Virus record (IMG/VR): IMGVR_UViG_3300010155_001996
Location: 1 to 20,061 of that record
DNA: 20,061 nt
Source of the DNA: a virus
Reading direction: 5' to 3' (one strand)
Part shown: in pieces, positions 1 to 18,196 of the stretch
Numbering within the stretch: position 1 is the stretch's first letter
How the letters are laid out: each line of letters begins with the position of its first letter
The notes under the pieces: model-generated
What the model was told of the DNA's origin: nothing
Seen by the model: only the letters and a program-made list of their open reading frames with translations
Databases searched by the model: none
Translations under genes and position numbers: made by a program

Positions 1-2352
1 ATCTCCAGTAAATAAAGCCCATAACTTATTTATCTGTTCTTTTGTATTGTGTTCTACAATATTACTAATATCAAGACCTGTTGCTGCAGATGCTATAGCA
101 GGAGCTAGAAAGTACACCATACCTAACCCATATGCTTTTTTAGCCCTAGTTCCTAGCAATTCTCCTGCAAGGATATCATCTCCAGCTTCTTTTGCTTTAT
201 CTATATTGTATTCTAAAAACTTTATACCATAATGCTGGAATTGTCCTAACAGTCTTCCTGCAGGATGCAACATCCACGGTGCCTTAGCTAATTCAGCATA
301 ATCAAAGTGAAGTAAAGTAGTTTTTCGAATACCATAATTTCTTGAACGACTTAATATTTCAGCTTTAATTTGAGATTCAGAAAGACCTGACTCCCTTAAA
401 GAAGTTTTGTAACTAGTAGAATTATTTAATTGTTCATACATTTTGAAAAAGGCTGTTCTAAACGTAGTCCTACGATTGAAATTCTCAATCTTAGCCATCA
501 TTTTACCACTAACTCCTGCAAAATTAGACACTTTAGAATGAACACTTGAAATAAGTCCAGGTTTTTTGAATTCAATTGTTTCATTATCAGTAATTCTTAT
601 TTTCTGAGTAAAGCTTTTACCCAACCCCCCCAAACTTTCTACCAATTCTGGAGCAGCTGTATCAGCAAATAAAAATCCAGCCTCTTTCATCATATTATCA
701 ACTAGAACTTTTATATCTTGATTATTATTATAAAATGATGTTGATTTCATCATAATAATTGGGCCAAATTCTACAAGATTAAGTAATCCTTGAGTAGCAT
801 TTTTAAAAGGAGAACGAAGATTGTATCCAAGTTTACTTGTAAATTCTAATGCTAACAAAGTTTTCATAGCTCCTTCAACATTCTCATTTTCGAAACCATA
901 GCCACCTTTCATACGAGCATTCATATCTATCATCATTTCAACAGTAGATCTTGCATATCCATCTAGAGGTTCGCCATTCTTGAACATCTCTTTGGCAGCA
1001 TTTAATGACTCTTTAGTATACATATCAGCATGTGCAACCATATTAAATCTATCTACCTCATCCATATACCTCTTTATATTAGTAAAGAAATTCCATGAAT
1101 ATTCATTCTGAGCATTTATACCTTCGGAATCAATATCAGTCACCCTACGCCCCTTTGTTCTGCCAGTAACATAACCTTCTAATCCTTTTAAAGCTGATTC
1201 TACAGCATTAGATTCAATCTTAAAATCACTAGCAACAGCATCAGATAGACGTTGCATATGAGGCATTAAGTTATCAAAAAAATCTATATTCAAAATCCTT
1301 TTATAATGAGGGAAATAACCCACTTGTTTGTCAGGACTAATCTTCTCTTTTATTTTTTCCCCTATTTCTGCAATCCTTTCAGGTGTATATCTTCCTTTCA
1401 TTCCTTGCTTTATCGAACCTACATATGCATTGACTCCATTTACTAATGTACTATGCATACTATCCATAAGGTCTATATATTCAGTAACAGCATTTACCAT
1501 AGGAGCAGATTTGAGAGCACTTTCAGGATGCTCAGCTCCATACTTAGCAAAAACAGGATTCAATATATTCTTTCTTCTGGTATTGTATTCACTCCTTGTA
1601 ATTTTATTCTTTTCTAATAGTTTTAATAATTTTGGTTTCTCTGTCCACCATTCCTTTAATTTCTCAAAATGTATTTTAGGTAAATCTTCCTCAATAGTCT
1701 TACGCATTTGATTAATAACTTTTCCTTCTCCATTGACATAGAAATTAGTTTCAGCTCTTAAAGCAGTTGATAACTTTTCCTTTGCACCTGGAACTCCATT
1801 CCAAGTATCTACAACAAGTTCTTCAACAATTGCTTCATGCTTATTAGCCGCTTTTGTTGCATTCTTTAACTTTCGCTTTGCTTGAATTTCACCAACAAAT
1901 CCCTCACTATAGCCATTTACAAGCATCTCTTTCTGCATGTGAGTTATTATATTTTGAAATGCTCTATCATGCCTATCTGTTCTACCTTTATATTGCAACC
2001 CTACATTATGAAGATTATCCATTAATGATATAAGTTGAGGATTTCTTTCAGCAACTCCTGAAGGAGTATAAAATACTGACCCAAAATTATGTATCAAATC
2101 TCCCTTCTCAGATGCTTTTGTAACTTTAGCCAACCTTCTTCTAAAGGTGTTTAAAAGTCCTTCAGTAAGTTTCACACCTTCTACATTTTCTATTGGTAAA
2201 TGGAAAATATCTAAAAATGTATTCCTTACCTGCTGATCTGCTTCATGTGAACCAAATCGTCTTAATATAGCAGGATTTTTTTTAAACTCAATACCTATAT
2301 CAAACATTTTATCAATTAAACCTTTTGGACAACCACCACCAGGTGCTATCAT
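1..2352 (-). CDS. Large internal virion (ejection-type) protein, C-terminus beyond window
   Basis: This reading frame is open for 784 codons from an ATG at 2352 and runs off the left edge, so the C-terminus is missing. An AAGGAG Shine-Dalgarno five bases upstream fixes the start. The N-terminus is MIAPGGGCPKGL; the only cysteine in the visible part is residue 8. Most of the chain is charged and looks alpha-helical. Residues about 683-716 contain a motif (FDYAELAKAPW, then GRLLGQFQHYGIKF) of a kind I associate with giant phage 'polyvalent' or ejected proteins. Residues about 740-760 form a hydrophobic Gly/Ala-rich stretch (GLGMVYFLAPAIASAATG) that could enter a membrane. It lies 16 bases downstream of the giant gene and is probably cotranscribed with it. 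A role in genome ejection is inferred from composition and neighbours. I cannot name a family with certainty. Confidence 0.75.
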   Translation of the reverse strand, partial: MIAPGGGCPKGLIDKMFDIGIEFKKNPAILRRFGSHEADQQVRNTFLDIFHLPIENVEGVKLTEGLLNTFRRRLAKVTKASEKGDLIHNFGSVFYTPSGVAERNPQLISLMDNLHNVGLQYKGRTDRHDRAFQNIITHMQKEMLVNGYSEGFVGEIQAKRKLKNATKAANKHEAIVEELVVDTWNGVPGAKEKLSTALRAETNFYVNGEGKVINQMRKTIEEDLPKIHFEKLKEWWTEKPKLLKLLEKNKITRSEYNTRRKNILNPVFAKYGAEHPESALKSAPMVNAVTEYIDLMDSMHSTLVNGVNAYVGSIKQGMKGRYTPERIAEIGEKIKEKISPDKQVGYFPHYKRILNIDFFDNLMPHMQRLSDAVASDFKIESNAVESALKGLEGYVTGRTKGRRVTDIDSEGINAQNEYSWNFFTNIKRYMDEVDRFNMVAHADMYTKESLNAAKEMFKNGEPLDGYARSTVEMMIDMNARMKGGYGFENENVEGAMKTLLALEFTSKLGYNLRSPFKNATQGLLNLVEFGPIIMMKSTSFYNNNQDIKVLVDNMMKEAGFLFADTAAPELVESLGGLGKSFTQKIRITDNETIEFKKPGLISSVHSKVSNFAGVSGKMMAKIENFNRRTTFRTAFFKMYEQLNNSTSYKTSLRESGLSESQIKAEILSRSRNYGIRKTTLLHFDYAELAKAPWMLHPAGRLLGQFQHYGIKFLEYNIDKAKEAGDDILAGELLGTRAKKAYGLGMVYFLAPAIASAATGLDISNIVEHNTKEQINKLWALFTGD

Positions 2353-2368: not shown

Positions 2369-5300
2369 TTAATAATTCACAGTAGGCTCAACAAGAGGAG
2401 TACAGTGTCCTGCTTTCCTACGCTTTCTTTGTAAATCTTCTATAGTATCACTTGGGACTTTCTGCTTTATCTTTATATCCTGTCCCTGCTTTATAAGTCT
2501 TTTTAACATACTCAATCTATAATTACCAAGTAATGCTAATGGTTTTATAGATATCCCATCTCCACGACCTACAAGCATCTGAACATCTGGACTAGTACTA
2601 TGAGGACTTATTCTACCTGGCTCTGTATAACCTCCTTGAATTACTCTATCTAATCCCAAATTACTAAGATCAGTTGCAACATTCTCATTCATTACAAAAT
2701 ATGAAACAGGATCCATATAATTATTCTCCATCATCAATTGTTGAGTACGTGATAAAGTCTCATGTAACTTTTCAAACTGTAATTTTGTGTCTTTAGATTG
2801 ACCATCTGCTATAAGCCTCCTGTAGAATGATATATGACTATCATATTCTGGTCCCATTCCAAATGCATCTTTACTGAACATACCCTTTTCAGTATGTATA
2901 CTTTCATATCTATCCCATGTACCTGTAAGTTTCCTGTTATATCCAGGAACATTATTAATTACAGACATCATATTTCTATCATTGAGTGGAATATGTTCAA
3001 AATTTCTATCAAAAAAGTTACTATATGCCGTATATCTTTGAGCTAATTGTTCTAAAAAGTTTTTATATTCTAATTTTACTTGTTTATTTGTTTCATTATT
3101 GTATTTATCAAGCATAAATCTTATTGTACGCTTAAATCTTCCTGAACTCTTTGTACTTATCGGAATTGGCTCACCATTATATATTCCAATAGTAGTTGCC
3201 CCATCAGTCCTGGTAGGCATAGCATATTCCAATAGATATGCCATCCCCCATCCAGGAGTTTCAAATCCATCATTTAATCTTTCCATTATCTCAGCTTCAA
3301 TACTTTGAATATCACTTAATGGATTCATTCTTCTTCTTGTTTGTTCTGCAGTAGTCAAAGTTCTTCCCATATGTTTAGAAGTATATCCCATATCTGCATT
3401 CTCAGCATAAAGTTCAGCACCTAAGACCTGAGTCTTCCGTATAGAATCAAAAAATTTCTCTCTATTTGAGGGACGAAATCTCTCATGCAATGCATGAAGA
3501 GTATACCATTGGATAGTAGCTTCTTTCATATCTTTCTCTCTGGTAACATCTACCATTTTAAGATATTTCAGATGCTTAACATCACCTGTCTCAAGATATT
3601 CTGTACTAAGTATTTCATACAACTTCCCTTCTAACTCCTTTATAATACTATCCATACCTTCTACACGTTTTACTCTCGTATTCTCATTCATTTTATAATT
3701 CTTAAGAAGCCTACCTTTAGCTCTCTTTAAGTATTTTATATAATTAATATCATCCTTGACATTCTTGGTTAATCCAGGTAAAATTTCTTTCATCCTTTCT
3801 CGAGTCAATCCTGAATAATTCTCATTAAGAATTGCATTAGTGGCTGCTTGCATCTCTATATACAAATCTCCTTGAAGAATAGTTTCATTTTTACCTGAAT
3901 TACTATCCTCTGCTAATGGATCTCTATATAAAATTTCTCTATAAATACGTTCTGCAATTGAACCATGCTTTCCTCCAGAAGTTTTAGTTTGTGTAGCATG
4001 AGTCTCTGCACCTTCAACAAACGGATTTCTACTATACCATAAATAATTATACTCGCCAAACGGTTTGTTTTGAGCTTTTTCATCTTGGACTTTTTCCATA
4101 AAGGATGCTTGATATTCAAACTTCTTATCTCCATAAAAAGAATTCATCTTCTCATCAACTTTTTTCTTTCTTTGGACGCTTTTTACTCCAAATAAATTTC
4201 TAACTTCATCTGAATAACCATGTTTTCTTATCACACTTAAAAATGTTTGTTTACCAAGATCATTTAAATGGTCATTAAAATAACGATTTGATTTAGTAAT
4301 TATATCTTGATAGCTAGCTGGTCTACCTTGACCAGTATTATCATATACCTCCGTACTTAAAGTTAAGAAATCTGAATGTTCCTTCATTAAGGTTTTGAGA
4401 ATTGTTATTTCTACAGCAGAAAGATCTTCTTCTTTACCAGTTTTTACATTATGTTTCCTAAATATTCTAATACTACTATTATTAGGACCTTTATTGTTTA
4501 ATTGTTTATGTCGTCTTCCTTGTAAACTATCCTTCACATCTTCTCTAGATACTGAATTAGCCATAGTTTCAAATAGAGCATCCATTCGCCACATTGGCAT
4601 CTTGTTAACTATTTTAGAATTTACACCTTTCCAGTAATCAATAATAAGTTGTGATTCTAAAGCCATCCTATCAAAGAAACTTGAATTATCATAATCAACT
4701 GAAATAATAAATTCATTGTTAGGTCCAGATTTCATTAAATCTTGTCGTCCAGTTTCCTTATTAAGGACACCTAAATTAGCCATATGATTAATTAATCTTG
4801 GTGTTTTTTGTACAATTCCAATACCTTGTTTAAATACTCTGTTATTTGCATCAAAAGTATTCCATCCCTGATTACTATACCCCCTATCCAGTATTCTCAT
4901 TTCAGGGACATCACCTTCGTAAAAGCTTACATCCTTTGTATTTACCCAATGTTTTTTAACCCTACTAATATGATTCCATGTACCTTTATTCATTGCCCAC
5001 ATGAAGTCAACTTCATCTACATCATAATCTCCTTCAAATATATTAAGTACATCAAATCCATTTACTATTGCTGTATTTCCATCTGCCTCTCCTAGAAAAC
5101 TCTTCAATCTAAGTATAGCTAAATCATTAGGACTTGTACGAGGATATCTAGTAGTCAATATTCCTATAGACCAAGTAGGGTCTAAAGACTTTATAGTCTC
5201 ATGCATAATTCCTAAATTAGAAGTTTTTAGAAGATCATTATAAGCTTCGTCTAAATCTTTATCAGTAAGTCTTGGCTCTTCCTCTTTAAATAGAGATTTA

Positions 5301-8300
5301 AATACTTTCTTTAAGTTCTTTACATTCCCATTACTATCAACAGCTCTTAAATCTAAATCAGCATCTCTAAAACTAACATGTCCTTCACGAGCATAATGAG
5401 GTAATACTATTTCACCCTGATATATCTCGACATTTTCTCCTTTTTCTCCTTTTCTAATTGTAGGATCTAAATCTCTAAATCTAAAGTTCTGCTTTATAAC
5501 TGCTTTTCCACCATATACTTCACCATGATTAGTCTCAGAAGGTGGACTTAATAGAGGATCTAGAAATTGAGATTTAATTGCATTGACAATATGAGAATCT
5601 CCCATTGCTCTGGGATCTCCTCCTAATGCAGCCCATTGCATTTGATGTCCAACACCTTCCAATCCTTCAGGAGTACTTTGCATATCAGCTAATGTAATAC
5701 CTGGATCAACACTTTTCATTTTGAGTAATGCTATACGTCTGTATAAAGCATTCTTCATGAGCTGTCCCATTACGCCACCTTCAGATCCAATTTTATCAAC
5801 ACCTAAAATCTTATCAAGTCTCGCTTTATAAAAGGTATTATAATATTCTCCTGCCTCTCCTGAACTCATATAATTAGTTAAAGAAAGAGATTGTCTTGCT
5901 CTCATTTGTTTCTCTGGAATGACACTCACTCCAATAGTATTTAAAGGTATTTCCTTCATATACTGAGCTATTTCAGGAGTAGTTATATTCTCCATTTCTC
6001 CTACAGTTTTATCTATATATACAGGACGATCAGGGTTTCCTTGTCTATTCCATTCCACTTCTGACATAGCTGATTTCATTTTATCAGCAGAACGAGTAAG
6101 CATAATATCAAGATCAGGATGTTTATTGAAAATAGATTCTTGAATACCAGGATCATAAACAAACACTGTTTTTGCAAACATCATATATTCTTCACCATTA
6201 GATGATATAATAGGTTTAAATACAGCAGATCCTTCTCTATCCACACCATAAAAAAGCTCTAAAAATCTTCTATAATCACGACTAATAAATGAGATACTAT
6301 CATAACCTCCAGGATCTTCACGAGAACCTAACATATTATTCCATGTTGTTGCTTTCTTTTCCAATTTTTGTCTGACTGAAGGTTCTATTTTTGCCATATC
6401 CATATCATTCCAAACAATAAATCCTGCCTTATTTTTAGCAGCATAAGTGTCTAATATCCGACCATCCGCTGCATCAAAACTCCAACGTGCATTATTCCTC
6501 ATAGAATTTAGGATTGAATGATCAATTCTTCTAAATTTAGGAGTATGATAAAGAGACAGTCGTTTACCAAGATCAGCAAATTCCTTATTACTTCCATGAA
6601 CTATATCTAGAAACCTTTTATCATTCTTCCCTTGTACCATTGATTCAATTATAATAGAACGCATAGCATCTACATGTATATCCCCCCATGCTCCATCTCT
6701 TCTTAAACCATCCCTCATATTATCAAGCAAGCCCCTGACCTCTTGATTACCTTGTTCGTAATAAACATCATAGATTCTTTCTATAAACAAGTCTCTTACT
6801 TTCTCATGACTATTACTTGGGACACCTAGAACTTGCTTCCCAGATCCCAATCTAATTAATTTGACACCAGTACTAGATCCATCCTCCCATACATAGTTTT
6901 GAAGAACTTTATTAAAGTCTGCTTTTAAATTCTTAGCACGAGCATCAGCATCTTTCCCAAAACCAGAAATAGAATGAGGAGAATCCATATCCAAAACATT
7001 AACATTTGTACTTTGTATATCACGCCCTATATACATAAAAGCTTTCATATCACCATCTACAAAAACGAAGGGTACTTCTAAATCCTTGAATAAATTTGTA
7101 AATGGTCCCTTTTGCATGTTTTTCATTGTAACTTTAGACTTCCCATCCTGAACAGTTAAAACAGGAATAGATTCACTTCCTTCACGTAATACAATAATCT
7201 TCTGGACATCAGAAGAAACTCTTCTATACAAATCATGATATCTCCCATTTTTATTCCGTATTACAGTTTTACCAGAGATACTTACAGTCTGCCCATTTAT
7301 TCGTTCTGAGAGAGTCATTTTCTCTATTAGAGCATCATGTGCACTATGATAAATTGAACCATCTCTATTTTTTATAGTATTTGTTAGGAATTCAAGCTGC
7401 TCTATAGGATCATTAATTCGACTGCTCCATCCAGTATGATCAGGGAAATATCTCGTAAAAAACTCTTGCTGTGATATAGAAGATGTTCCTCTTATCCTAT
7501 ATTTATTATCAATAATAGTATCAATATCACCTTCAGCAGCAGTTGCCAATTTCTCCATATCTGTTGAATAAATCCCAAAATTCTTTAACCAATTAGCTAC
7601 TAAAGCACGATTCTCCTTATGCTGCGCTTCTGATCCTGTAAGAGCATCTCCTTTAAATACATACTTAATAACCTTATTATTATACTCAGTTGTCATAAGA
7701 CCCTTACTAAGTAGGAAATTTAGGAAATGATCAGGATGATTGGATCTCTTTATATAGCTAGCCATAGAATGTTTTAAATTATCTCTGGGATCTAACACAT
7801 TCACGAAGTCTATAACAGCTTGTGCAGCATTTTCTCCTTCTTGAGAACCTTTCCTTTGTACAATACTCCTAAGAACCTGTAAATCATTTGTATTATTTAT
7901 TTGTATAACACGATCAAAACTTACAATCCCATTACTACGATCTACCAACCCACCTTTAATAGGTATACTAGGACGTGAAGGATCATAACCTATATAATCG
8001 TTATATAATTCATGCCATGACCTACCTGCAATTTGTAATGATCTTCCCTTATTTTTAGCATCTCCAATAACTGCTATAGGATGAACAGAAAACATAACAC
8101 CTCCTTCTCCAGGAGGAGAGAATGTAGCAAATGGAGAATCTAAAGAAGCTAAGTCATTTAATCTAGCAATATCAGAACTTATTAGTTTTACTTTTGGATC
8201 ACTTATAATATCCATAAATAACTTTCGTTCTACATTACCATGAAATTCCTCTAAAAAATGTTTTTCAGTATTTATACCCTGTTTATTCAAGTAAGCTTCG

Positions 8301-10981
8301 AAACTCTTTACCTTCTCTAAAGGAATCGTTATCTCTTCAACAGTAGTATCAACCCTTCGTAAACCTTTATTCATAAGTTTTAATACACCTGTAACTGACC
8401 TTAATAAAGATTCTTCATTATCACCTTTATATCCTTCAATTCCTGTTTTATCAACCTTTAGTTTCCTATAAGGATACATCATTAAACTGGTTAAATCATC
8501 AGGATCCTTAACTACTACTCCTAATTCTTGCAATTCATTTAACATTTCATTCCATTTAGGATTATCAGTTTCGCTAAAAACCTTTGAATAGGTATTCATA
8601 CTCTCTATGTAATTACGAGCAAGCAATTGATTCTGGACTAAATAAAGTGAATCCCAGTCAAAATCAATACCTCTCTGCTTACTTTGCATTATTTCTTTTA
8701 CTCTTGATTCACCTACAGTAATATTTCGTATAAGACTCTCAAGTTGTCCCGCAGTTTTCACAAATACAGTGTTAAGTTTAGGATTCTCACTTATTGTTCC
8801 TTTACCCATATTAGCTACAGTCTCATTTATATTATTAGCATGACGAAGAATATCAGTTACTTTCTCAATGCTAAGTACAACATTATTATCTTTTACTTCC
8901 CCTCTCTCTATACGGATTCTAAGCTTAGGATCTATCATAATAGTTTTAGGTAATTCTCCTAGACTTCCATCACTTGCATTTCCTGATATCCATTCAGTAT
9001 TACTTTCAGTAGTAACAGATTCATTTAAAACCTTTTGCATTGTTAGTGCTACTTCATATTTAACCTCGTTAGTTATATTATCCCTAGAAGCTTCCAAGAC
9101 CTCAATAAAATCATCTTGCGTTCTAATCTTACCTTTGCCTTCCCAATCAATTTCCCTTATTAAATCCTCTATTTCTGTAGCTTCTTTCTCAGTAATCAAA
9201 GCTCTCGCTTTAACATTTTTAGTAGTTGTCCCCTTTATCCAAAGATAAAATTCATCAAACAATGGGAATGATTTATCAGAGACAGGAAGTTCAGGGCTTT
9301 TTTGTTCTCGTGCATTTGATTTTTCTGTTACCTCATATGAATCTGATACAATCTCTAGATCTTCTGCTTTTTGTCTCAAGTTCTTAAAAGTTCTTGATGT
9401 AAGAGGATTAATATGCTCCATTTGACCTCTTCCAAGAGTAGGGTAAATGTCATACATTCGTGGTTGAGCCTCTCCAAGAACATTTAAATTAGATCTTATC
9501 TCTCGCATTCTTACCTTGTTCATTTCAGGAGTAAGTGGACGACCTCTCCTATTTAAAAATGCTCCTATCAATAATGATTGCATGACATCTTGAGGTTCTA
9601 GAGGAGCTCCCTGGCCTGCATGTAAAATAAGTTTAGCATTCATAATAGCAGTACCACCAATTATACGTTTCCAATTTGCTAAACTACTCTTAAAATCTTC
9701 CTTTACAGATTCCTTCATCATTTCCTTACCATAAAAGCGTCGCTGTGAATTTAATGCATCTCGTAGAACTTCTATGGATTTTGCGTGCTTCTCTCCTATA
9801 GAAGCAACTGGATTTAATAAATCTATAAAATATTTCTTTCCCTTATAAGTATGTTCAATTAGAGATGATCCTTCAAGTGCATTTTTCCTACTATTACCTA
9901 TTATCTTTGAATTCATAAGTAACTTATCTACAAGCATATTCTCTTTCCCAAAATAGTTGTGCTTGAATGCTGCTCGAATACCAGACTTAAAATCATCCTT
10001 AGTAATAGACTGCTTACCTGCAGCTGGAAGAAGTTTTAATAATCCAAATCCTGCACCTACTCCTACACCCCATAATGGTGCAAGGAAGTCATACTCTCTA
10101 CCTTCATTTAATGATGCTGTCCCTTCAAATACAGCGTCTATCATGCCAAACATCATCCCTTCTTGGACCATACTTCCTGTAATAAAACCAAACTTATTAG
10201 GATTACGTTTCATCAAAACATCCACAAAATCCTGCATAGGACGAGTACCTATATTCTTTTTAAATGTCTCGGCAAGTAATTTACCTTCCTTAGCTGTTAA
10301 TTTGCCTAATTTTTGCCCTTCTATTACAATGCTATCTATTGCATCTGAAGCTGTTTTACCCCAATTATCAACTACACCTTTTCCTGCTCTATCCCATCTA
10401 GATTTCATTGAAAGATGAGCAACAGTCTTTCCTACCTGTTTATTTACAACATCTCGTGCTATCTTTGTAGAGAATAATTCAGTACCCCTAGAAGCCTCTT
10501 TTATTGCCTTCTGCGTTGCTTTAATAGAAGCTTTAACAGTTTTAGCACCTACTGCTTTTATTAAAGGTTTAGCTGCAAGTTGGACAGCCTTTGCTCCCAA
10601 CTTCATAGGTCCACCAATAACAAATCCTACAGTACCACCTACAGCTGCTCCAGCTTTTCCCAAAGCAGTTTCTGGAGTAAGATATTCTTTTTCTATTTCC
10701 TCAGATACAAGTAAACTTGGTAACCCAAATCCTGCTGTTTCAGTAAAGCTCCAGAGTGATTGTCCAAGTAAATCTATTGCAGCATTTCTCGGTTCATCTC
10801 TTTCAAAAGTAGTAGTAGGCAAAGCAGCCCGTAATAAATTCATATCACCAGAAACAGGTTTTACAGCCCTGGTTGAGGTACCCTTTAATAAATCTGGTGT
10901 TTTGAAATAGTCCTCAAATGATGGTGTTCTGATAGTGCTAGTATCAGTTGGGGCTACTAAAAGATCATATAAAGTAGGCAT
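2369..10981 (-). CDS. Giant 2870-aa virion protein, candidate double-psi beta-barrel RNA polymerase
   Basis: A single uninterrupted 8.6-kb gene fills 43% of the window. Residues about 106-146 and 299-322 are Gly/Ala-rich and hydrophobic, as in phage proteins that cross the host envelope during ejection. Residues 1945-1963 read RYPRTSPNDLAILRLKSFL, and residues 1984-1990 read GDYDVDE. The spacing R-x-P, then a hydrophobic stretch, then D-x-D-x-D-E resembles the beta-prime catalytic loop of multisubunit-type RNA polymerases and of the single-chain phage enzymes related to them (crAss-like phage virion polymerase, YonO). The three Asp (1985, 1987, 1989) would bind the catalytic magnesium. Lys 1826 and 1830 (GGKAVIK) are candidates for the partner-barrel lysines, but this is a guess. 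The protein has a single cysteine, 11 residues from its end. The likely role is transcription of early phage genes after ejection. It might instead be a purely structural or polyvalent protein with a degenerate barrel. The gene is certain; the polymerase call is about 60-65%. Confidence 0.65.
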   Translation of the reverse strand: MPTLYDLLVAPTDTSTIRTPSFEDYFKTPDLLKGTSTRAVKPVSGDMNLLRAALPTTTFERDEPRNAAIDLLGQSLWSFTETAGFGLPSLLVSEEIEKEYLTPETALGKAGAAVGGTVGFVIGGPMKLGAKAVQLAAKPLIKAVGAKTVKASIKATQKAIKEASRGTELFSTKIARDVVNKQVGKTVAHLSMKSRWDRAGKGVVDNWGKTASDAIDSIVIEGQKLGKLTAKEGKLLAETFKKNIGTRPMQDFVDVLMKRNPNKFGFITGSMVQEGMMFGMIDAVFEGTASLNEGREYDFLAPLWGVGVGAGFGLLKLLPAAGKQSITKDDFKSGIRAAFKHNYFGKENMLVDKLLMNSKIIGNSRKNALEGSSLIEHTYKGKKYFIDLLNPVASIGEKHAKSIEVLRDALNSQRRFYGKEMMKESVKEDFKSSLANWKRIIGGTAIMNAKLILHAGQGAPLEPQDVMQSLLIGAFLNRRGRPLTPEMNKVRMREIRSNLNVLGEAQPRMYDIYPTLGRGQMEHINPLTSRTFKNLRQKAEDLEIVSDSYEVTEKSNAREQKSPELPVSDKSFPLFDEFYLWIKGTTTKNVKARALITEKEATEIEDLIREIDWEGKGKIRTQDDFIEVLEASRDNITNEVKYEVALTMQKVLNESVTTESNTEWISGNASDGSLGELPKTIMIDPKLRIRIERGEVKDNNVVLSIEKVTDILRHANNINETVANMGKGTISENPKLNTVFVKTAGQLESLIRNITVGESRVKEIMQSKQRGIDFDWDSLYLVQNQLLARNYIESMNTYSKVFSETDNPKWNEMLNELQELGVVVKDPDDLTSLMMYPYRKLKVDKTGIEGYKGDNEESLLRSVTGVLKLMNKGLRRVDTTVEEITIPLEKVKSFEAYLNKQGINTEKHFLEEFHGNVERKLFMDIISDPKVKLISSDIARLNDLASLDSPFATFSPPGEGGVMFSVHPIAVIGDAKNKGRSLQIAGRSWHELYNDYIGYDPSRPSIPIKGGLVDRSNGIVSFDRVIQINNTNDLQVLRSIVQRKGSQEGENAAQAVIDFVNVLDPRDNLKHSMASYIKRSNHPDHFLNFLLSKGLMTTEYNNKVIKYVFKGDALTGSEAQHKENRALVANWLKNFGIYSTDMEKLATAAEGDIDTIIDNKYRIRGTSSISQQEFFTRYFPDHTGWSSRINDPIEQLEFLTNTIKNRDGSIYHSAHDALIEKMTLSERINGQTVSISGKTVIRNKNGRYHDLYRRVSSDVQKIIVLREGSESIPVLTVQDGKSKVTMKNMQKGPFTNLFKDLEVPFVFVDGDMKAFMYIGRDIQSTNVNVLDMDSPHSISGFGKDADARAKNLKADFNKVLQNYVWEDGSSTGVKLIRLGSGKQVLGVPSNSHEKVRDLFIERIYDVYYEQGNQEVRGLLDNMRDGLRRDGAWGDIHVDAMRSIIIESMVQGKNDKRFLDIVHGSNKEFADLGKRLSLYHTPKFRRIDHSILNSMRNNARWSFDAADGRILDTYAAKNKAGFIVWNDMDMAKIEPSVRQKLEKKATTWNNMLGSREDPGGYDSISFISRDYRRFLELFYGVDREGSAVFKPIISSNGEEYMMFAKTVFVYDPGIQESIFNKHPDLDIMLTRSADKMKSAMSEVEWNRQGNPDRPVYIDKTVGEMENITTPEIAQYMKEIPLNTIGVSVIPEKQMRARQSLSLTNYMSSGEAGEYYNTFYKARLDKILGVDKIGSEGGVMGQLMKNALYRRIALLKMKSVDPGITLADMQSTPEGLEGVGHQMQWAALGGDPRAMGDSHIVNAIKSQFLDPLLSPPSETNHGEVYGGKAVIKQNFRFRDLDPTIRKGEKGENVEIYQGEIVLPHYAREGHVSFRDADLDLRAVDSNGNVKNLKKVFKSLFKEEEPRLTDKDLDEAYNDLLKTSNLGIMHETIKSLDPTWSIGILTTRYPRTSPNDLAILRLKSFLGEADGNTAIVNGFDVLNIFEGDYDVDEVDFMWAMNKGTWNHISRVKKHWVNTKDVSFYEGDVPEMRILDRGYSNQGWNTFDANNRVFKQGIGIVQKTPRLINHMANLGVLNKETGRQDLMKSGPNNEFIISVDYDNSSFFDRMALESQLIIDYWKGVNSKIVNKMPMWRMDALFETMANSVSREDVKDSLQGRRHKQLNNKGPNNSSIRIFRKHNVKTGKEEDLSAVEITILKTLMKEHSDFLTLSTEVYDNTGQGRPASYQDIITKSNRYFNDHLNDLGKQTFLSVIRKHGYSDEVRNLFGVKSVQRKKKVDEKMNSFYGDKKFEYQASFMEKVQDEKAQNKPFGEYNYLWYSRNPFVEGAETHATQTKTSGGKHGSIAERIYREILYRDPLAEDSNSGKNETILQGDLYIEMQAATNAILNENYSGLTRERMKEILPGLTKNVKDDINYIKYLKRAKGRLLKNYKMNENTRVKRVEGMDSIIKELEGKLYEILSTEYLETGDVKHLKYLKMVDVTREKDMKEATIQWYTLHALHERFRPSNREKFFDSIRKTQVLGAELYAENADMGYTSKHMGRTLTTAEQTRRRMNPLSDIQSIEAEIMERLNDGFETPGWGMAYLLEYAMPTRTDGATTIGIYNGEPIPISTKSSGRFKRTIRFMLDKYNNETNKQVKLEYKNFLEQLAQRYTAYSNFFDRNFEHIPLNDRNMMSVINNVPGYNRKLTGTWDRYESIHTEKGMFSKDAFGMGPEYDSHISFYRRLIADGQSKDTKLQFEKLHETLSRTQQLMMENNYMDPVSYFVMNENVATDLSNLGLDRVIQGGYTEPGRISPHSTSPDVQMLVGRGDGISIKPLALLGNYRLSMLKRLIKQGQDIKIKQKVPSDTIEDLQRKRRKAGHCTPLVEPTVNY
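5015..5149 (-). other. Predicted polymerase catalytic loop (D-x-D-x-D) coding segment
   Basis: Codons 1945-1989 of the giant gene. Arg1945-x-Pro1947 is followed by a hydrophobic strand, a short turn with GNTAIV, and then GDYDVDE. In cellular RNA polymerases the matching segment runs from R-x-P-T-L-H to NADFDGD. The glycine usually found between the second and third Asp is Val here. Variants with other residues at that position occur in phage single-chain enzymes, to my recollection. Confidence 0.6.
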
Positions 10982-11954: not shown

Positions 11955-13523
11955 CTAAGGGCTCAATGAATGTGTCATTTTTGCTATAGATTCTTCTGCT
12001 AGCATCCATATATCAAGTTCTTCTGACATATATTGTCCATAATATCGTATATCTTTTGTAGAACCATTACGTATCATCTCATCCCATGCTTCCATTTGTT
12101 TTAATATTATATTATCTATCTCTTCTACAAGCGTGATATATAAAGTTCCTGAAGTATTCCCTTCCTTTTCTAACTTTCTTTGTGTTCCAATTTTCTGCAA
12201 TAATCCAGATGTTTGTAGGAACTTCCTGAAATCTGCTCTACTTGCTTCAGCTGCTTCAATAGGGAAATCTGGTGTTGTTATAGGTGGAGCTAAATATCTC
12301 ATTGTTTTCTGCGATGTATCTTCAATATTCTGGTTTAATTCAATAAGACTACTCAATTGATTTACCATAGCACTTTGTCCTATAGCTTGAAGTAAGTACA
12401 ACTGTTTATATTGCTCTACACCATTTAGAGTAATTGTACCACCATTTACTATTGCTTCTAAAGTATTGCTAACTGTACCTCCTACTTCCTGATTCCCAAA
12501 CACATATGAAAGTCCCTCAATTGTAGCATTAAAGTTAACAATATCTGTATCTGTAATTCGTTTATCTAATTTATTATTTTCGAACATATCTTTTATAGTT
12601 GACTTTACAGAATCATAAACACCAGTAAAGGATTTGGTATCAGATCCACTAGCATCAGTCCATCTTATAACTGTTTCACCTTCATCATCAGTACCTACTC
12701 CTAATGAGGTTGCAAATGCTGCTGCCATCTCTCTATATTTGCTTGAAGCCAAATTAGCGTCAGGATTATTAACAAGTACACTTGCATATGCTATATTTGT
12801 ATCTCTGTTAGATTGCTGCATCTTCTCATAATCTGTCTTAGATGCAAAAGTAGGATTATTATTTATTAAACTTGTCTTTAATCCAGTCATAGTATAACCT
12901 ATTAACTCTTCAGATTTTGGCCCAAGTGTAGGAACTCCATTTGTTATCACCAAATCATGTATATTTTCATCGATGAATCCCTCATCTATTAATTGAGTTA
13001 ATACATAAGGATTCTCATAACCCCCCATATCATTTATCGCATTTTCAAAATCACTAATATCAGATTGAGTTAGCCATCCAGGAGTAGGATCCCCTCCTAG
13101 CTGTGTTGAAAATCTAGCAGAAATTGCTGGACTTGTTATATTTCTCCCTCTATTAAATCCTGTATTAAAAGCAGTATAGTTAGCTTTATTTTCCTCATTA
13201 GTCCCAGGTGTTATACCCTTCTCAAGAAGTAAAGTTGCAAGTGTCTGTGCCTGTGTTTCCTCAGCACGTGGAGTTGCGGCAAAATCAACACTAGAAAAAT
13301 CAGGATTCCCACTTGCATCAAATGTAAGGTCATCACCATATTGTGCAAGTAATTGTTGTTGGAAACTCGTTTCCTGCATCTCCTTAGCATGTGCCTGACT
13401 ACTTCTTTGCATCTTTAAAGCATGTTTTTGTGACTCCTCTTGCAGTTTCAATGCACTTGGTTCTAACATACGATTCAATGTTTCAAAAAGTAATGCTGCT
13501 TCTCCAAATCCTGTTTCAGCCAT
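11955..13523 (-). CDS. Cysteine-free internal virion protein candidate (522 aa)
   Basis: Residues about 15-55 form a Gln/Lys/Met-rich amphipathic helix (ALKMQRSSQAHAKEMQET), followed by a mixed helical and polar body rich in Asn, Thr and Ser. There is no cysteine or obvious membrane segment. The gene starts with ATGGCTGA, which contains the TGA stop of the permuted-Hint gene, giving an 8-base overlap. A strong AGGAGG lies seven bases upstream, inside the Hint-coding sequence. The stop is TAG. Immediate coupling to the permuted-Hint gene suggests coordinated stoichiometry. By position and composition it fits an ejected or tail-core protein of a short-tailed phage. I recognise no catalytic motif and assign no function. 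Confidence 0.7.
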   Translation of the reverse strand: MAETGFGEAALLFETLNRMLEPSALKLQEESQKHALKMQRSSQAHAKEMQETSFQQQLLAQYGDDLTFDASGNPDFSSVDFAATPRAEETQAQTLATLLLEKGITPGTNEENKANYTAFNTGFNRGRNITSPAISARFSTQLGGDPTPGWLTQSDISDFENAINDMGGYENPYVLTQLIDEGFIDENIHDLVITNGVPTLGPKSEELIGYTMTGLKTSLINNNPTFASKTDYEKMQQSNRDTNIAYASVLVNNPDANLASSKYREMAAAFATSLGVGTDDEGETVIRWTDASGSDTKSFTGVYDSVKSTIKDMFENNKLDKRITDTDIVNFNATIEGLSYVFGNQEVGGTVSNTLEAIVNGGTITLNGVEQYKQLYLLQAIGQSAMVNQLSSLIELNQNIEDTSQKTMRYLAPPITTPDFPIEAAEASRADFRKFLQTSGLLQKIGTQRKLEKEGNTSGTLYITLVEEIDNIILKQMEAWDEMIRNGSTKDIRYYGQYMSEELDIWMLAEESIAKMTHSLSP

Positions 13524-14475
13524 TATTCTTCCTCCTTACATAGAATGAATGATTACCTGTAGCCAGAATTCTACCATTAACAAGTAAATATCCTCTATCA
13601 TTTTTATGTCTAAATGTTTCAACAACTTCCTTTTTCTCTATAATCCCTGTCTCTATATTGTAAGAGGCTACCATATCTCCTTCTTTTATTTTAGATATAT
13701 CCTTATCATCTACCTTTGTATCAGCTGAAAAACAAGTCATTCCCCAATTTGCTCCCATATCGCCAAGTGCTGTATATGTTCCTCCTGTCCATTCAGTACC
13801 TCCTGTATATCCTGTCTCAAACTCAGGGGTAGTAGCAGCACTAGAATGTGCCAGGGTTGCCGAACTACCAATAAATCCTGCAAATAAATCAGTTTCTCGT
13901 TGAGCTAAATCAAAAAGACCTGCCTCTAAAGCAGATTTCTCTCCTACTTGACCAGCTTCATATTGGGTTCTTGATTTTTCAATATCTTCTGTTAGAGTTT
14001 CTTTTCCCTGTTGCATCAGATAATCACCAGTAGATGCTACTAATCCTGTACTACCAACTTGAGATTCCATCTTCTCCCTTTGTTTCCCATATTCAGATCC
14101 TTTCCAGGAAATATCTGATTCAAATATATCTTTCTGAGATTCAGCTGCTGTATCATAAGTTTCCTGTAGTGATAGAGCTTTATCGGTTAGATGTCCAAGG
14201 GAATCTATCATAGCCTGATAAGATGCTTTATCTCGTTTTATTGCAGCTTTTGCAGCTTTATCATTTCCTACATATGATCCCCACTTATTACGATTATGTA
14301 CTAACACTCCTTCAGCATAATAGTTGTGGTTGTCAGATACTTCTATATTGTAAACATCCTCAGTACTAGGGACAGATTCTATACTCTCTACTACTTCTTC
14401 CTTCCCATCATAATTTAAAAGTAAATCTCCCTTTCGTACATGCTGTAATTGAATAAATTCTCTTATAATTTCCAT
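13516..14475 (-). CDS. Circularly permuted Hint (intein-like) protein: IC - helical cargo - IN
   Basis: Residues 1-61 are the C-terminal half of a Hint/intein domain: KGDLLL strand, VYNIEV, DNHNYY (block F) and GVLVHN (block G, His60-Asn61). Residues 62-247 are a helical cargo ending in a flexible Thr/Gly/Trp stretch. Residues 248-319 are the N-terminal half: Cys248-FSADTKV (block A), KEGDMVASYN, and TGNHSFYV (block B, Thr306-x-x-His309). Placed in normal order the two halves make one complete mini-Hint domain of about 133 residues with no homing endonuclease. Cys248 is the only cysteine in the protein. The residue after Asn61 is Arg, so standard transesterification is not possible; A-type bacterial intein-like domains also lack this nucleophile. 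Expected outcomes are a circular cargo, release of a linear cargo, or head-to-tail joining of monomers. The start is fixed by AAAGGAG four bases before the ATG. The cargo resembles its helical neighbours and is likely an internal virion protein. Hint halves: very confident; products: inferred. Confidence 0.9.
   Translation of the reverse strand: MEIIREFIQLQHVRKGDLLLNYDGKEEVVESIESVPSTEDVYNIEVSDNHNYYAEGVLVHNRNKWGSYVGNDKAAKAAIKRDKASYQAMIDSLGHLTDKALSLQETYDTAAESQKDIFESDISWKGSEYGKQREKMESQVGSTGLVASTGDYLMQQGKETLTEDIEKSRTQYEAGQVGEKSALEAGLFDLAQRETDLFAGFIGSSATLAHSSAATTPEFETGYTGGTEWTGGTYTALGDMGANWGMTCFSADTKVDDKDISKIKEGDMVASYNIETGIIEKKEVVETFRHKNDRGYLLVNGRILATGNHSFYVRRKNNG
13519..13734 (-). other. Hint N-terminal half (IN), 72 codons
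   Basis: Codons 248-319. Cys248 would carry out the N-S acyl shift at the Thr247-Cys248 bond, and Thr306 and His309 of block B would assist. The half ends right after block B with RRKNNG, which is shorter than the roughly 100-residue N-half of cyanobacterial DnaE split inteins. Confidence 0.88.
13531..13536 (-). promoter_or_regulatory. Shine-Dalgarno of the 522-aa gene embedded in the Hint half
   Basis: AGGAGG doubles as the Arg314-Arg315 codons of the IN half and lies seven bases before the ATG at 13523. The C-terminal tail of the Hint half is therefore partly constrained by the next gene's ribosome binding site. Confidence 0.75.
13735..14292 (-). other. Cargo segment between the permuted Hint halves, 186 codons
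   Basis: Codons 62-247. The cargo begins Arg62-Asn-Lys-Trp and ends Gly-Met-Thr247. Residues about 70-205 are charged and helical. Residues about 213-247 are a low-complexity Thr/Gly/Trp tether with a repeated TGGT unit, suitable for bringing the two Hint halves together. It contains no cysteine. Confidence 0.75.
14293..14475 (-). other. Hint C-terminal half (IC), 61 codons
   Basis: Codons 1-61, beginning at the gene's own start codon and ending His60-Asn61. Asn61 cyclisation would break the bond to Arg62. The half includes the strand before block F, so it is longer than the roughly 35-residue C-half of DnaE split inteins and pairs exactly with the short IN half. Confidence 0.88.
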
Positions 14476-14479
14476 AATT

Positions 14480-14486
14480 CTCCTTT
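14480..14486 (-). promoter_or_regulatory. Shine-Dalgarno that fixes the start of the permuted Hint gene
   Basis: The minus strand reads TAA AGGAG AATT ATG. The upstream gene's TAA overlaps the Shine-Dalgarno. Termination of the 321-aa gene followed by re-initiation four bases later would place the IC half at a true N-terminus. Confidence 0.8.
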
Positions 14487-15450
14487 AACTAAACATATCC
14501 CAAAGACTTTTAGCAGCTAAAGCAGTTCCAACAACAGGACCTCCAAGAAAACCTCCCACTGCTTTACCTAATTCAGACGCTACGATATCTTTTCCAACTT
14601 TTTTTCCAAGATATTGAGCTCCTTCACCTATAGTTTTCTCAGTTGCTTTGCCAACAATATCCTTACCAAATGTTTTCCCTATAACTTGTGTTCCTGCCAA
14701 AGTCTTAGTTATTCCGACGCCTTTGTCAAAAGCATTAGATCCTGGATTAGTCAATTCCTCAATTCCTGTTAAAACATTATATGTGCCTAAAACAGCACCC
14801 AATCCACCTCCCTTTATACCTGTTGCCTTAACATCTCCTTCTTCCCACCAATATGGATTATTCACATCCCTTTGATGGTCAGTTAGATTTATAGGTCCTT
14901 CAATTGCGGCACCTGTGTCTTTATCCACCCAGGATTGAGGGCCTCTTAATTTCTGCAATTTAGGGTGCCACCATTTTGCGGTGTCATCAATGTGTGGATA
15001 TTCAGTTGCGTCTTCCACACTGAATCCTGGCTTCACTCCTCCCCCACTCCTAGTGTTGTGAATTTGAGATACTTCCTGAGCTGCTGTAGTAAAATCTTTC
15101 TCTGACCATCCTCGCAAGTTAAGTTTATCTTCAAGTGCACCCCATAAATCTTTACCAATACTAAGCTTTGGATCAGAATCATAGGATCCAGATTCCTTAA
15201 ATATCCTATGAGAAGAACCTAATTCCAAATCTGATGTCACGTATTCAGGAGATATCTCAAACTCCATATCTCTGATATCCCCTGTAAATGCTTCCAATCC
15301 TTTCTTAGCCAATAGTGAAGCTTTAAGCGCAGCTTGACGACCTTCTTGGCCTCTTATGTCAGCTGCTTCACTCTCTCTTAGTCCTCTATAATAGTCTACA
15401 TCTGCTAGTGCTGTACCAAATTTTCCTGTAGTATCATAATAATTTGACAT
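14485..15450 (-). CDS. Internal virion protein candidate with Gly/Ala-rich C-terminus (321 aa)
   Basis: The N-terminal 60 residues are charged and helical. The middle is polar and Trp/Pro-rich (DDTAKWWHPKLQKLRGPQSW). Residues about 210-321 are rich in Gly, Ala, Lys and Thr and end in a hydrophobic segment (GGFLGGPVVGTALAAKSLW), a composition common in phage proteins that insert into the host envelope. There is no cysteine. The gene is in the same reading frame as the permuted-Hint gene and is separated from it by only the TAA and three codons. No family is recognised. An ejection or pore role is inferred from the hydrophobic tail and the neighbourhood. Confidence 0.7.
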   Translation of the reverse strand: MSNYYDTTGKFGTALADVDYYRGLRESEAADIRGQEGRQAALKASLLAKKGLEAFTGDIRDMEFEISPEYVTSDLELGSSHRIFKESGSYDSDPKLSIGKDLWGALEDKLNLRGWSEKDFTTAAQEVSQIHNTRSGGGVKPGFSVEDATEYPHIDDTAKWWHPKLQKLRGPQSWVDKDTGAAIEGPINLTDHQRDVNNPYWWEEGDVKATGIKGGGLGAVLGTYNVLTGIEELTNPGSNAFDKGVGITKTLAGTQVIGKTFGKDIVGKATEKTIGEGAQYLGKKVGKDIVASELGKAVGGFLGGPVVGTALAAKSLWDMFS

Positions 15451-16116: not shown

Positions 16117-17670
16117 TTATCTCACTGGCTTCAATCTATAAACTATTGAAATATCATTAATCTCAAATGTTGAAGCAGCAACACTAGAGAACTTTAAACG
16201 AATGCTTTTTATATTATTAATTGAAGCAGATGGAGTTAACTCAGCTTGTATCCAATTTCCTGTTGTATCAGTTAAATTAGCATCAAATTGAAGAAAAGAA
16301 GAACTTCCATCAACAGAATACATAACATCAATAGCATTGCCAGTACCTCCTGAATTCCCATCAAAATGAGTAGAAACATTAAACCCTGTATCTCCATCAG
16401 ATGCAGCTGTACGAAAATCGGAGACAACATCTGTGATAAATACAGTATCTCCTTGAACTTTACAAGTTGCAACAGGATTACCATCTCCATTAGTATGATT
16501 GTCGATAGCTGCTGCTAAATGTAATGCAACAACTTCTGCAGCATCATTTGTTTTAACTCCTGTAACTTCAATATCATCATCTTCTCCTGATACACTTGGT
16601 TTACTACTACCACTATTATCTGTATCAAACCAAATGGTTGTTTGTCCTGCAGTACCACCCCCTGCTGCATCATTCCTAAAGAAGACAGTAAAATATTTTT
16701 CATTCAAACTATCACTAACATCAGGCAAACATACTACTTTAGTTATTTCAGGGAGTGCTCCAATAGATCCTCCCTTATAAGTCACATATATTTTATATAC
16801 TTTCTTTCTCTGTCCAGGTTGTCCAAAATCGATATCTTTAGTAGCCATAGTTGTAGCTAGACTATATACTCCAGTATCAGACCACTTCATCACAGTACCA
16901 GTACCAGAAGTATGGGTATGGACTAAATCACCATTCCAATCATTAATAAAATTTGTCTGAATTTGACTATCTGTAAACTTAGTATCACCTTTGGTCCAGC
17001 TTTGTGTTACTAAATCATATAGATAAATATTACCAGCACTTGATGCAGTACAATCCTTTAGTACTATTAACTGTCTTTTCTTTGGAACATATCCAATAAT
17101 AGAATTATCAGTTATAAAGTCATCCCAATTACTTTCTTTTATTATTTGCCTACCTTGCTTCTCTAGTAGGTTATGTACTTCTTTCCCATCATATAAATAG
17201 CATCCTAGTTTATTTACCCATGCTATACCAAAGTCAGTTTTACAAGTAGCTGCAGGATGAGATACTCCTTTGTAAAGTAAAGTATCTTCTAAAAACTCTA
17301 TTTCCTGAGATACATTAATTAAATGCATTTTATGTTTTTTAAATTGTAGTATTCTATCTGCATATTCTTCAAGTTTTATTATTGCATCACCATCAGCAAT
17401 AGAAGCTTCAATCTTCCTGAAATCAGCAAAAGTGTCAAATTTCCCTACAGCTGATTTATACATTGTATCACCTTCTATAGTAGTTTCACCTTTTAAATTT
17501 GTCTTCTTAACATTCCCAATATATACTGTCCTATTAGTAACAACTGCTGTTTTGAATCTTACAGTTAATAATTCTTCAACTACATCAGGGAGCTTAAAAG
17601 GTCTTACAGGAGATGGAAATCTATGTCCTACATGATAGAATCCAGGATTCTGTTGTGCATAGTTAGCCAT
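16117..17670 (-). CDS. Beta-propeller-like tail (nozzle-type) protein (517 aa)
   Basis: Residues about 39-205 show repeating beta-strand units typical of propeller-type phage tail proteins: TAVVTNRTVYIGNV, LEEYADRILQFKKHKMHLI, GIAWVNKLGCYLYDG and IIGYVPKKRQLIVLKD. The phrase 'IYLYDLVTQSWTKG' continues the same blade pattern. From about residue 285 a different beta-rich domain follows (FGQPGQRKKVYKIYVTYKG to the C-terminus). No signal peptide or catalytic motif is seen. AGGAG eight bases upstream supports the start, which overlaps the NTase-like gene by eight bases. In related phages, to my recollection, this propeller is the C-terminal part of one larger protein whose N-terminal part matches the gene at 18211-20061. 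The likely position is the tail tube or nozzle. The general call is moderately sure; the exact family is not. Confidence 0.6.
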   Translation of the reverse strand: MANYAQQNPGFYHVGHRFPSPVRPFKLPDVVEELLTVRFKTAVVTNRTVYIGNVKKTNLKGETTIEGDTMYKSAVGKFDTFADFRKIEASIADGDAIIKLEEYADRILQFKKHKMHLINVSQEIEFLEDTLLYKGVSHPAATCKTDFGIAWVNKLGCYLYDGKEVHNLLEKQGRQIIKESNWDDFITDNSIIGYVPKKRQLIVLKDCTASSAGNIYLYDLVTQSWTKGDTKFTDSQIQTNFINDWNGDLVHTHTSGTGTVMKWSDTGVYSLATTMATKDIDFGQPGQRKKVYKIYVTYKGGSIGALPEITKVVCLPDVSDSLNEKYFTVFFRNDAAGGGTAGQTTIWFDTDNSGSSKPSVSGEDDDIEVTGVKTNDAAEVVALHLAAAIDNHTNGDGNPVATCKVQGDTVFITDVVSDFRTAASDGDTGFNVSTHFDGNSGGTGNAIDVMYSVDGSSSFLQFDANLTDTTGNWIQAELTPSASINNIKSIRLKFSSVAASTFEINDISIVYRLKPVR

Positions 17671-18196
17671 TTAGATACTCCTGAATTGGAATTAATCTGC
17701 TCTCTTCAGTATACTTACCTTCATTGAACATCTTCTGTGAGTAGATAAAATTATGTGGTGGATCTAAATATGTAGTCTTCCATAAATCTCCTTCTATCTT
17801 TTCAGCATCAGGAGTATAATCTACCTCTACAATATCATCTCTAATCTTTTTACAATTCTCCCATGATCTTATCTTTACAAATGGCTCAAAAGGTTTGCTA
17901 ATACTATATATTCTATCCTGCCAAAAGATATCTACTAGCATAAGATGTTCAAATCCTAAACGGATTCCAGTATCTAATAAATCTTTCAATCTTGAATAAT
18001 CTTTTATTTCACCTAATAAGCAAATATCTAAATCCCATGTTTCTATTCCTTGGGAAACTCCACCTCCAATATACATTTTATATTCATCTTTGAAATATTT
18101 AGAGTAATCATTATACCATCTTTTAATCAAAAATTCATGAGGTCTCTCCCAAGGTTCTGTTGTTTGAATATCACCAACTGTATATAAAAAACTCAT
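17663..18196 (-). CDS. Nucleotidyltransferase-like protein (177 aa)
   Basis: Residues 43-57 read IGGGVSQGIETWDLD. This is the G-G/S ... D-x-D signature of the polymerase-beta nucleotidyltransferase superfamily, with Asp55 and Asp57 as metal ligands. A third carboxylate lies at Asp89 in LMLVDIFW, on the strand where the fold places it. The length fits a minimal single-domain enzyme. It would transfer a nucleotide from NTP to an unknown substrate such as RNA, protein or a small molecule. GGAGG precedes the ATG. The gene sits between two tail-protein genes, an unexpected place for such an enzyme. Without a search I cannot tell whether it is an RNA-modifying, antitoxin-like (MNT) or antibiotic-transferase-like member. 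Confidence 0.7.
   Translation of the reverse strand: MSFLYTVGDIQTTEPWERPHEFLIKRWYNDYSKYFKDEYKMYIGGGVSQGIETWDLDICLLGEIKDYSRLKDLLDTGIRLGFEHLMLVDIFWQDRIYSISKPFEPFVKIRSWENCKKIRDDIVEVDYTPDAEKIEGDLWKTTYLDPPHNFIYSQKMFNEGKYTEESRLIPIQEYLNG

Follow-up and report, generated by a model that had tools for sequence, protein, structure and literature searches.

Hint domains bring both of their junctions into one active site, where the first cysteine (Cys1) forms a thioester with the residue that precedes it and the C-terminal Asn cyclises, cutting the chain after itself. To our knowledge, intein-made circular backbones are a laboratory invention. SICLOPPS and related engineered cyclisers place an intein C-half (IC), a target and an intein N-half (IN) in one chain, a part order identical to that of the phage genes described here, which we call E319 and E438; the cyclisers are engineered class-1 inteins with Cys, Ser or Thr at +1, whereas the phage genes are natural, carry Arg or Lys at that position and have a predicted circular product. 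Aranko, Oeemig and Iwai (2013; title as cited in PMC7664689) reportedly described ligation by a bacterial intein-like (BIL) domain that lacks nucleophilic side chains, in a protein that we take to be 2lwy.

A-type BIL domains, such as the Clostridium thermocellum BIL (2lwy), share with the phage proteins Cys1, TxxH, a C-terminal His-Asn and a non-nucleophilic +1 residue, and with the model of E438 the Hint fold, and are among their best fold and sequence matches; in the low-confidence model of E319 the halves are not seen assembled. Known BILs are contiguous and lie between two different flanks, whereas the phage domain is cut in two and its pieces trade places around one cargo. Where a BIL domain lacks a +1 nucleophile, cleavage often takes the place of ligation and most of the product is cleaved (PMC7664689). 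BIL2 of the Tetrahymena BUBL locus (6y75, 6tmm) is the closest system by sequence and fold; BIL domains of that locus process cargo domains and can move a cargo C-terminus onto an amine, and BIL2 joins ubiquitin-like domains or cargo to lysine through an isopeptide bond (PMC8616854). The BUBL locus has whole, separate BILs among its ubiquitin-like domains, in contrast to one Hint divided over the flanks of a cargo. Natural split inteins, including the atypical PolB16 OarG, also consist of two complementing halves, but these are encoded by two genes and rejoin parts of a host enzyme, whereas in the phages both halves lie in one ORF flanking the cargo. PT-HINT polymorphic toxins belong to the same Pfam family (PF07591) and differ in having a contiguous Hint ahead of a toxin rather than a permuted one in a phage structural operon; neither E319 nor E438 matched a toxin family.

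The E319 gene and its operon

The window is the whole stretch of DNA that was analysed, a single 20-kb metagenomic contig (IMGVR_UViG_3300010155_001996, 20,061 bases) of a marine-type phage. The parts of E319 and its neighbours are as follows.

13516..14475 (-): E319, whole permuted Hint gene, an ORF of 319 aa plus stop
14293..14475 (-): IC, the Hint C-half, residues 1-61 (PT-HINT profile 74-136; 60 bits to the IC profile)
14290..14298 (-): putative C-terminal processing junction, His60-Asn61 / Arg62, with a non-nucleophilic +1 (read from sequence)
13735..14292 (-): cargo, residues 62-247 (186 aa), mostly helical in a low-confidence model
13732..13737 (-): putative N-terminal processing junction, Thr247 / Cys248 (read from sequence)
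13519..13734 (-): IN, the Hint N-half, residues 248-319 (49-53 bits to the IN profile; structure alignment)
13516..13523 (-): 8-base overlap of E319 stop and D522 start, ATGGCTGA, identical in the second phage
14485..15450 (-): F321, the gene before E319, of no known family
11955..13523 (-): D522, the gene after E319; contigs L054 and L068 have a homologous D gene
2369..10981 (-): B2870, giant protein encoded in the E319 operon, with homologues in L054 and L068

E319 is a real ORF with natural-looking ends on both sides. Its start is preceded by AAAGGAGAATT, with AAAGGAGAATTATG as Shine-Dalgarno, and no longer reading frame exists because an in-frame stop lies just upstream; its C-terminus reads NNG-stop, and the D522 ribosome-binding site, AAGGAGG, is inside its last codons. 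In IC, GDLLL is followed by block F (HNYYAEG) and then block G (VLVHN), and IN contains Cys1 (C248), block A (CFSADT) and block B (T306GNH309). Cys248 is the only cysteine of the protein. The cargo ends in a Gly/Thr-rich tail, flexible in the low-confidence predicted model, and gave no convincing match to known families, its PHROG matches being weak.

The Pfam PT-HINT profile (PF07591) matches E319 in two separate stretches (E=4.8e-12), and in the best of these profile positions 74-136 fall on residues 6-61, so the C-half precedes the N-half. Profiles of the two halves, made from contiguous Hints of other organisms with both phage proteins excluded, gave the C-half (11-64) a score of 60 bits and the N-half (251-318) one of 49-53 bits, in coordinates of the stop-to-stop frame, which begins 3 residues ahead of Met; the maxima among 1000 shuffled E319 sequences were 10 and 7 bits, respectively. 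On these scores the match of both halves to Hint profiles is beyond chance. When the halves are rejoined in normal order, the resulting 133 residues give a single PT-HINT match over 11-133 (E=3.7e-14) and align over the junction of the halves with BIL domains of solved structure (6y75/6tmm, 3e-11 over 10-132; 2lwy, 3e-8 over 13-133), and tblastn returns one alignment to Ruminococcus-phage Hints that covers 99-100% of the query. Each catalytic block occurs once (Cys248, T306GNH309, H60-N61). Confidence in the full-length model is low (pTM 0.28), and packed halves are not seen in it, whereas each half alone is predicted well; VIA-align places residues 248-305 on inteins with Z ~5. The original prediction had read the gene as one Hint in IC-cargo-IN order with each block present once, and the half-profile, PT-HINT and BIL matches bear this out; His60-Asn61 and Cys248 stand in the sequence where it put them, and the gene lies in a structural-gene operon. 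The further reading, a circular or head-to-tail joined cargo in virions, stays a prediction. E319 almost certainly contains a whole-domain Hint permutation, as judged from its sequence.

From its gene neighbourhood and operon we infer that E319 belongs to the virion. Its giant neighbour B2870 (2870 aa) matched nothing convincingly in Pfam, in PHROGs or among solved structures and was unsuccessful as the sole query for relatives; these were gathered with a 70-aa conserved piece of the tail protein, which yielded 62 contigs. No Hint was found in the 62 tail-gene relatives, nor in an additional contig whose link is the giant virion protein. L054 and L068 are the nearest relatives, linked through the giant protein and D. 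At the E locus, L054 encodes a plain protein of 298 aa (L054:9221-10117) with kin in about 30 relatives, forming a ~300-aa family, and L068 encodes a different plain protein of 249 aa (L068:803-1552), so the locus between F and D is variable, with the permuted Hint present in some phages only. Homology of the E319 cargo to the relatives' plain protein is unsupported: 121 of 995 and 44 of 993 shuffles scored equally well.

Elsewhere in the window, a 177-aa gene (17663-18196, minus strand) lies between 16117-17670 and 18211-20061, separating H517 and J616. It contains a nucleotidyltransferase-like motif, GGGVSQGIETWDLDICLLG, and had no significant family match. The counterparts of H517 and J616 form one fused tail-protein ORF in nearly all of the 62 relatives and two adjacent ORFs in L064. 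The C-terminus of J616 is GGSGGGSGS.

A second phage and wider searches

A pattern scan of the viral collection for a Hint C-half shortly after a start codon recovered, as L080, a second phage contig (IMGVR_UViG_3300025267_003074; 28 kb; loci L091 and L092). At the same operon place as E319 it carries E438, a permuted Hint gene of 438 aa (L091:7774-9090). The protein begins MRKYIKNIKVGDYVKS; block B (T50GAH53) and then LVHN115 follow, and the C-terminus reads RR-CFSGDTWIEVYNG-stop, where CFSGDTWIEVYNG comprises 13 residues from Cys426. E438 opens with a Hint that lacks only its first ~13 residues, its first strand, and those 13 close the protein. Its catalytic residues are C426, T50GAH53 and H114-N115, with Lys116 at +1, and its one cysteine is at Cys1. 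The 13-aa IN of E438 would be below the minimum among characterised natural split inteins, the 15-aa IntN of PolB16 OarG (PMC10189870).

Residues 3-116 of E438 match the PT-HINT profile, the match starting at profile position 9. A model of a 423-aa part, from which the last 15 aa are absent, has pLDDT 88-98 from residue 1 to about 110, and in it residues 1-115 adopt a horseshoe Hint fold with Z up to 17 (against 2lwy, aligned at 13..135, Z 16.6 and rmsd 1.3 over 115; against 6y75, aligned at 14..148, Z 17.2 and rmsd 1.6 over 120). In most solved inteins and BILs the equivalent of modelled residue 1 is one of residues 13-15, so the gap at the front is ~13 residues, the length of the tail. The C-terminal block-A motif is visible in four overlapping loci, and among the 3796 ORF ends of all loci fetched E438 was the only one with a block-A motif.

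The Hints of E319 and E438 are 43% identical. Likeness of their cargos is confined to the first ~30 residues, beginning KGNKWYGSDKKAK after LVHN115 in E438 and RNKWGSYVGNDKAAK in E319. The gene order around both is of the same kind (F, E, D, C and a giant B of about 2,870 aa), the sequences of the neighbouring proteins are not alike, and the 8-base E/D overlap is common to both phages. The place of B2870 is taken in the second phage by a 2862-aa frame that looks unrelated. In E319 the break falls after block B and ahead of the conserved stretch that follows, and in E438 directly past block A. A homologue with a contiguous Hint in the same gene would have spoken for rearrangement of the contig; the distant homologue is permuted too, at another breakpoint. 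On this comparison IC-cargo-IN is a natural layout that recurs in two phages, the only two members found, with different breakpoints. No other Hint half was found in the E319 window or the second contig, so within those sequences the only possible partner of a half is its counterpart in the same copy or in a different one.

Direct searches with E319 of viral contigs and phage records returned no homologue, or only the N-half of Ruminococcus-phage Hints. Apart from L080, the C-half-first matches of the pattern scans were mostly known kinds, ordinary split or HEN-containing inteins of RNR, terminase and similar proteins. A scan of 84,980 species genomes found no E319-type start with a non-Cys +1, and the Hint scan of genomes returned contiguous Hints and orphan C-halves, the latter mostly from Chryseobacterium. 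Many orphan C-halves, most of them from Chryseobacterium, head short ORFs of ~70-190 aa that are likely silent toxin cassettes (L099, L101, L104, L109, L111, L113, L115, L119, L121, L135). Erwinia-phage collagen-like proteins were considered as permuted members and rejected because their Hint is contiguous. Other arrangements encountered include a phage protein that ends in two tandem contiguous Hints, with the stop one residue past the last His-Asn (LVHNK; L093:2-1816), PT-HINT proteins, including two that carry a nuclease domain (colicin-type DNase, EndoU), beside TPR proteins in Ruminococcus phages (L002, L003), and an ORF that consists of a Hint N-half, a C-half and then a second, truncated N-half at its end (L130:4503-5303). 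In the open-access papers that we searched we found neither a natural IC-cargo-IN gene nor an intein-made circular backbone in nature.

Predicted chemistry and product

The residue that follows Asn61 is Arg62, whose bearing on splicing the original prediction left aside. Class 1 inteins have Cys, Ser or Thr at +1; with Arg62 in E319 and Lys116 in E438, class-1 transesterification (canonical splicing) is impossible. The analogy that had been drawn with engineered cyclisers thus holds for the IC-cargo-IN order and fails at the +1 residue. Since Cys1, TxxH and His-Asn are kept and +1 is Arg or Lys, the chemistry should be BIL-like, combining Asn cyclisation with an N-terminal thioester, and ligation would come about only through attack of an amine on that thioester.

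We propose that residues 1-61 and 248-319 would fold together and bring Arg62 and Thr247 to one active site. Cyclisation of Asn61 would free the amino group of Arg62, Cys248 would take over the Thr247 peptide bond as a thioester, and attack of the freed Arg62 amine on the Thr247 thioester would close the 186-residue cargo head to tail, IC and IN being discarded. The computed mass of the cargo is 20,026.7 Da if circular and 20,044.7 Da if linear; for the E438 cargo the corresponding values are 33,906.6 and 33,924.6 Da. Self-cleavage of E319 at one or both junctions is probable. Head-to-tail closure in cis is our best single guess for the main product, held tentatively; it ranks above the alternatives because plain trimming gains nothing from permutation, which two diverged proteins have retained, each with its own breakpoint. 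The permuted order would bring the two ends of the cargo to a common active site, whereas a contiguous Hint at one end would be enough for simple trimming. The full explanation, that E319 is a natural permuted BIL-like Hint wrapped around its own cargo, which it then closes, has by our estimate a probability of roughly 0.5. Such a gene could have arisen from a cargo flanked by whole Hints, each copy of which lost a complementary piece; different losses might then have produced different breakpoints, as in E319 and E438. The proposed ancestor resembles the Tetrahymena polyubiquitin locus, in which BIL domains alternate with ubiquitin-like domains.

The strongest competitor, though rather unlikely, is that the reassembled Hint simply cuts at each junction and sets the 186-residue cargo free in linear form, as a kind of protease-free maturation. 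It would suit Arg62 and Lys116 at +1 and the predominance of cleaved products among BIL domains that lack a +1 nucleophile (PMC7664689), but it needs no permuted domain, and permutation with two breakpoints is best explained if the ends must meet. Less likely again is joining between molecules, in which IC and IN of different copies would produce head-to-tail chains or the Thr247 thioester would pass to a neighbouring lysine as an isopeptide cross-link. Structural proteins occur in many copies, and the closest solved relatives in both sequence and fold are the structures of Tetrahymena BIL2, which makes isopeptide bonds to lysines (PMC8616854); however, neither a partner nor an acceptor lysine can be pointed to, and it is within its own chain that the freed amine has the highest effective concentration. 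That the Hint is decayed or purely structural, its halves folding and clamping the protein after the reaction was lost, would fit the low-confidence full-length model of E319 but is very improbable, as both proteins, diverged to 43% identity in the Hint, retain an intact Cys1, TxxH and His-Asn, and the sole cysteine of each is Cys1. Scrambling of a contiguous Hint gene during assembly is nearly refuted: the window is one 20-kb metagenomic contig without a close sister sequence, but the gene has working boundaries at both ends (ribosome-binding sites, conserved overlap), and a distant contig repeats the IC-cargo-IN order with another breakpoint, which argues strongly against misassembly.

Closure in cis thus remains the reading we prefer. 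The wider proposition, in which natural IC-cargo-IN autoprocessing yields a virion protein that is backbone-circular or polymerised head to tail by BIL-type ligation without a +1 nucleophile, is possible and likewise tentative. The permuted Hint of these two phages has the layout that engineers use for making circular proteins, here apparently built by nature. If the proposal is true, this would be the first natural intein-based system of protein circularisation, and Hint domains could serve a structural gene and not only selfish or toxin-releasing roles. It would suggest that a virion protein can be matured or toughened without a protease, and would offer new ligation modules that tolerate Arg or Lys at +1.
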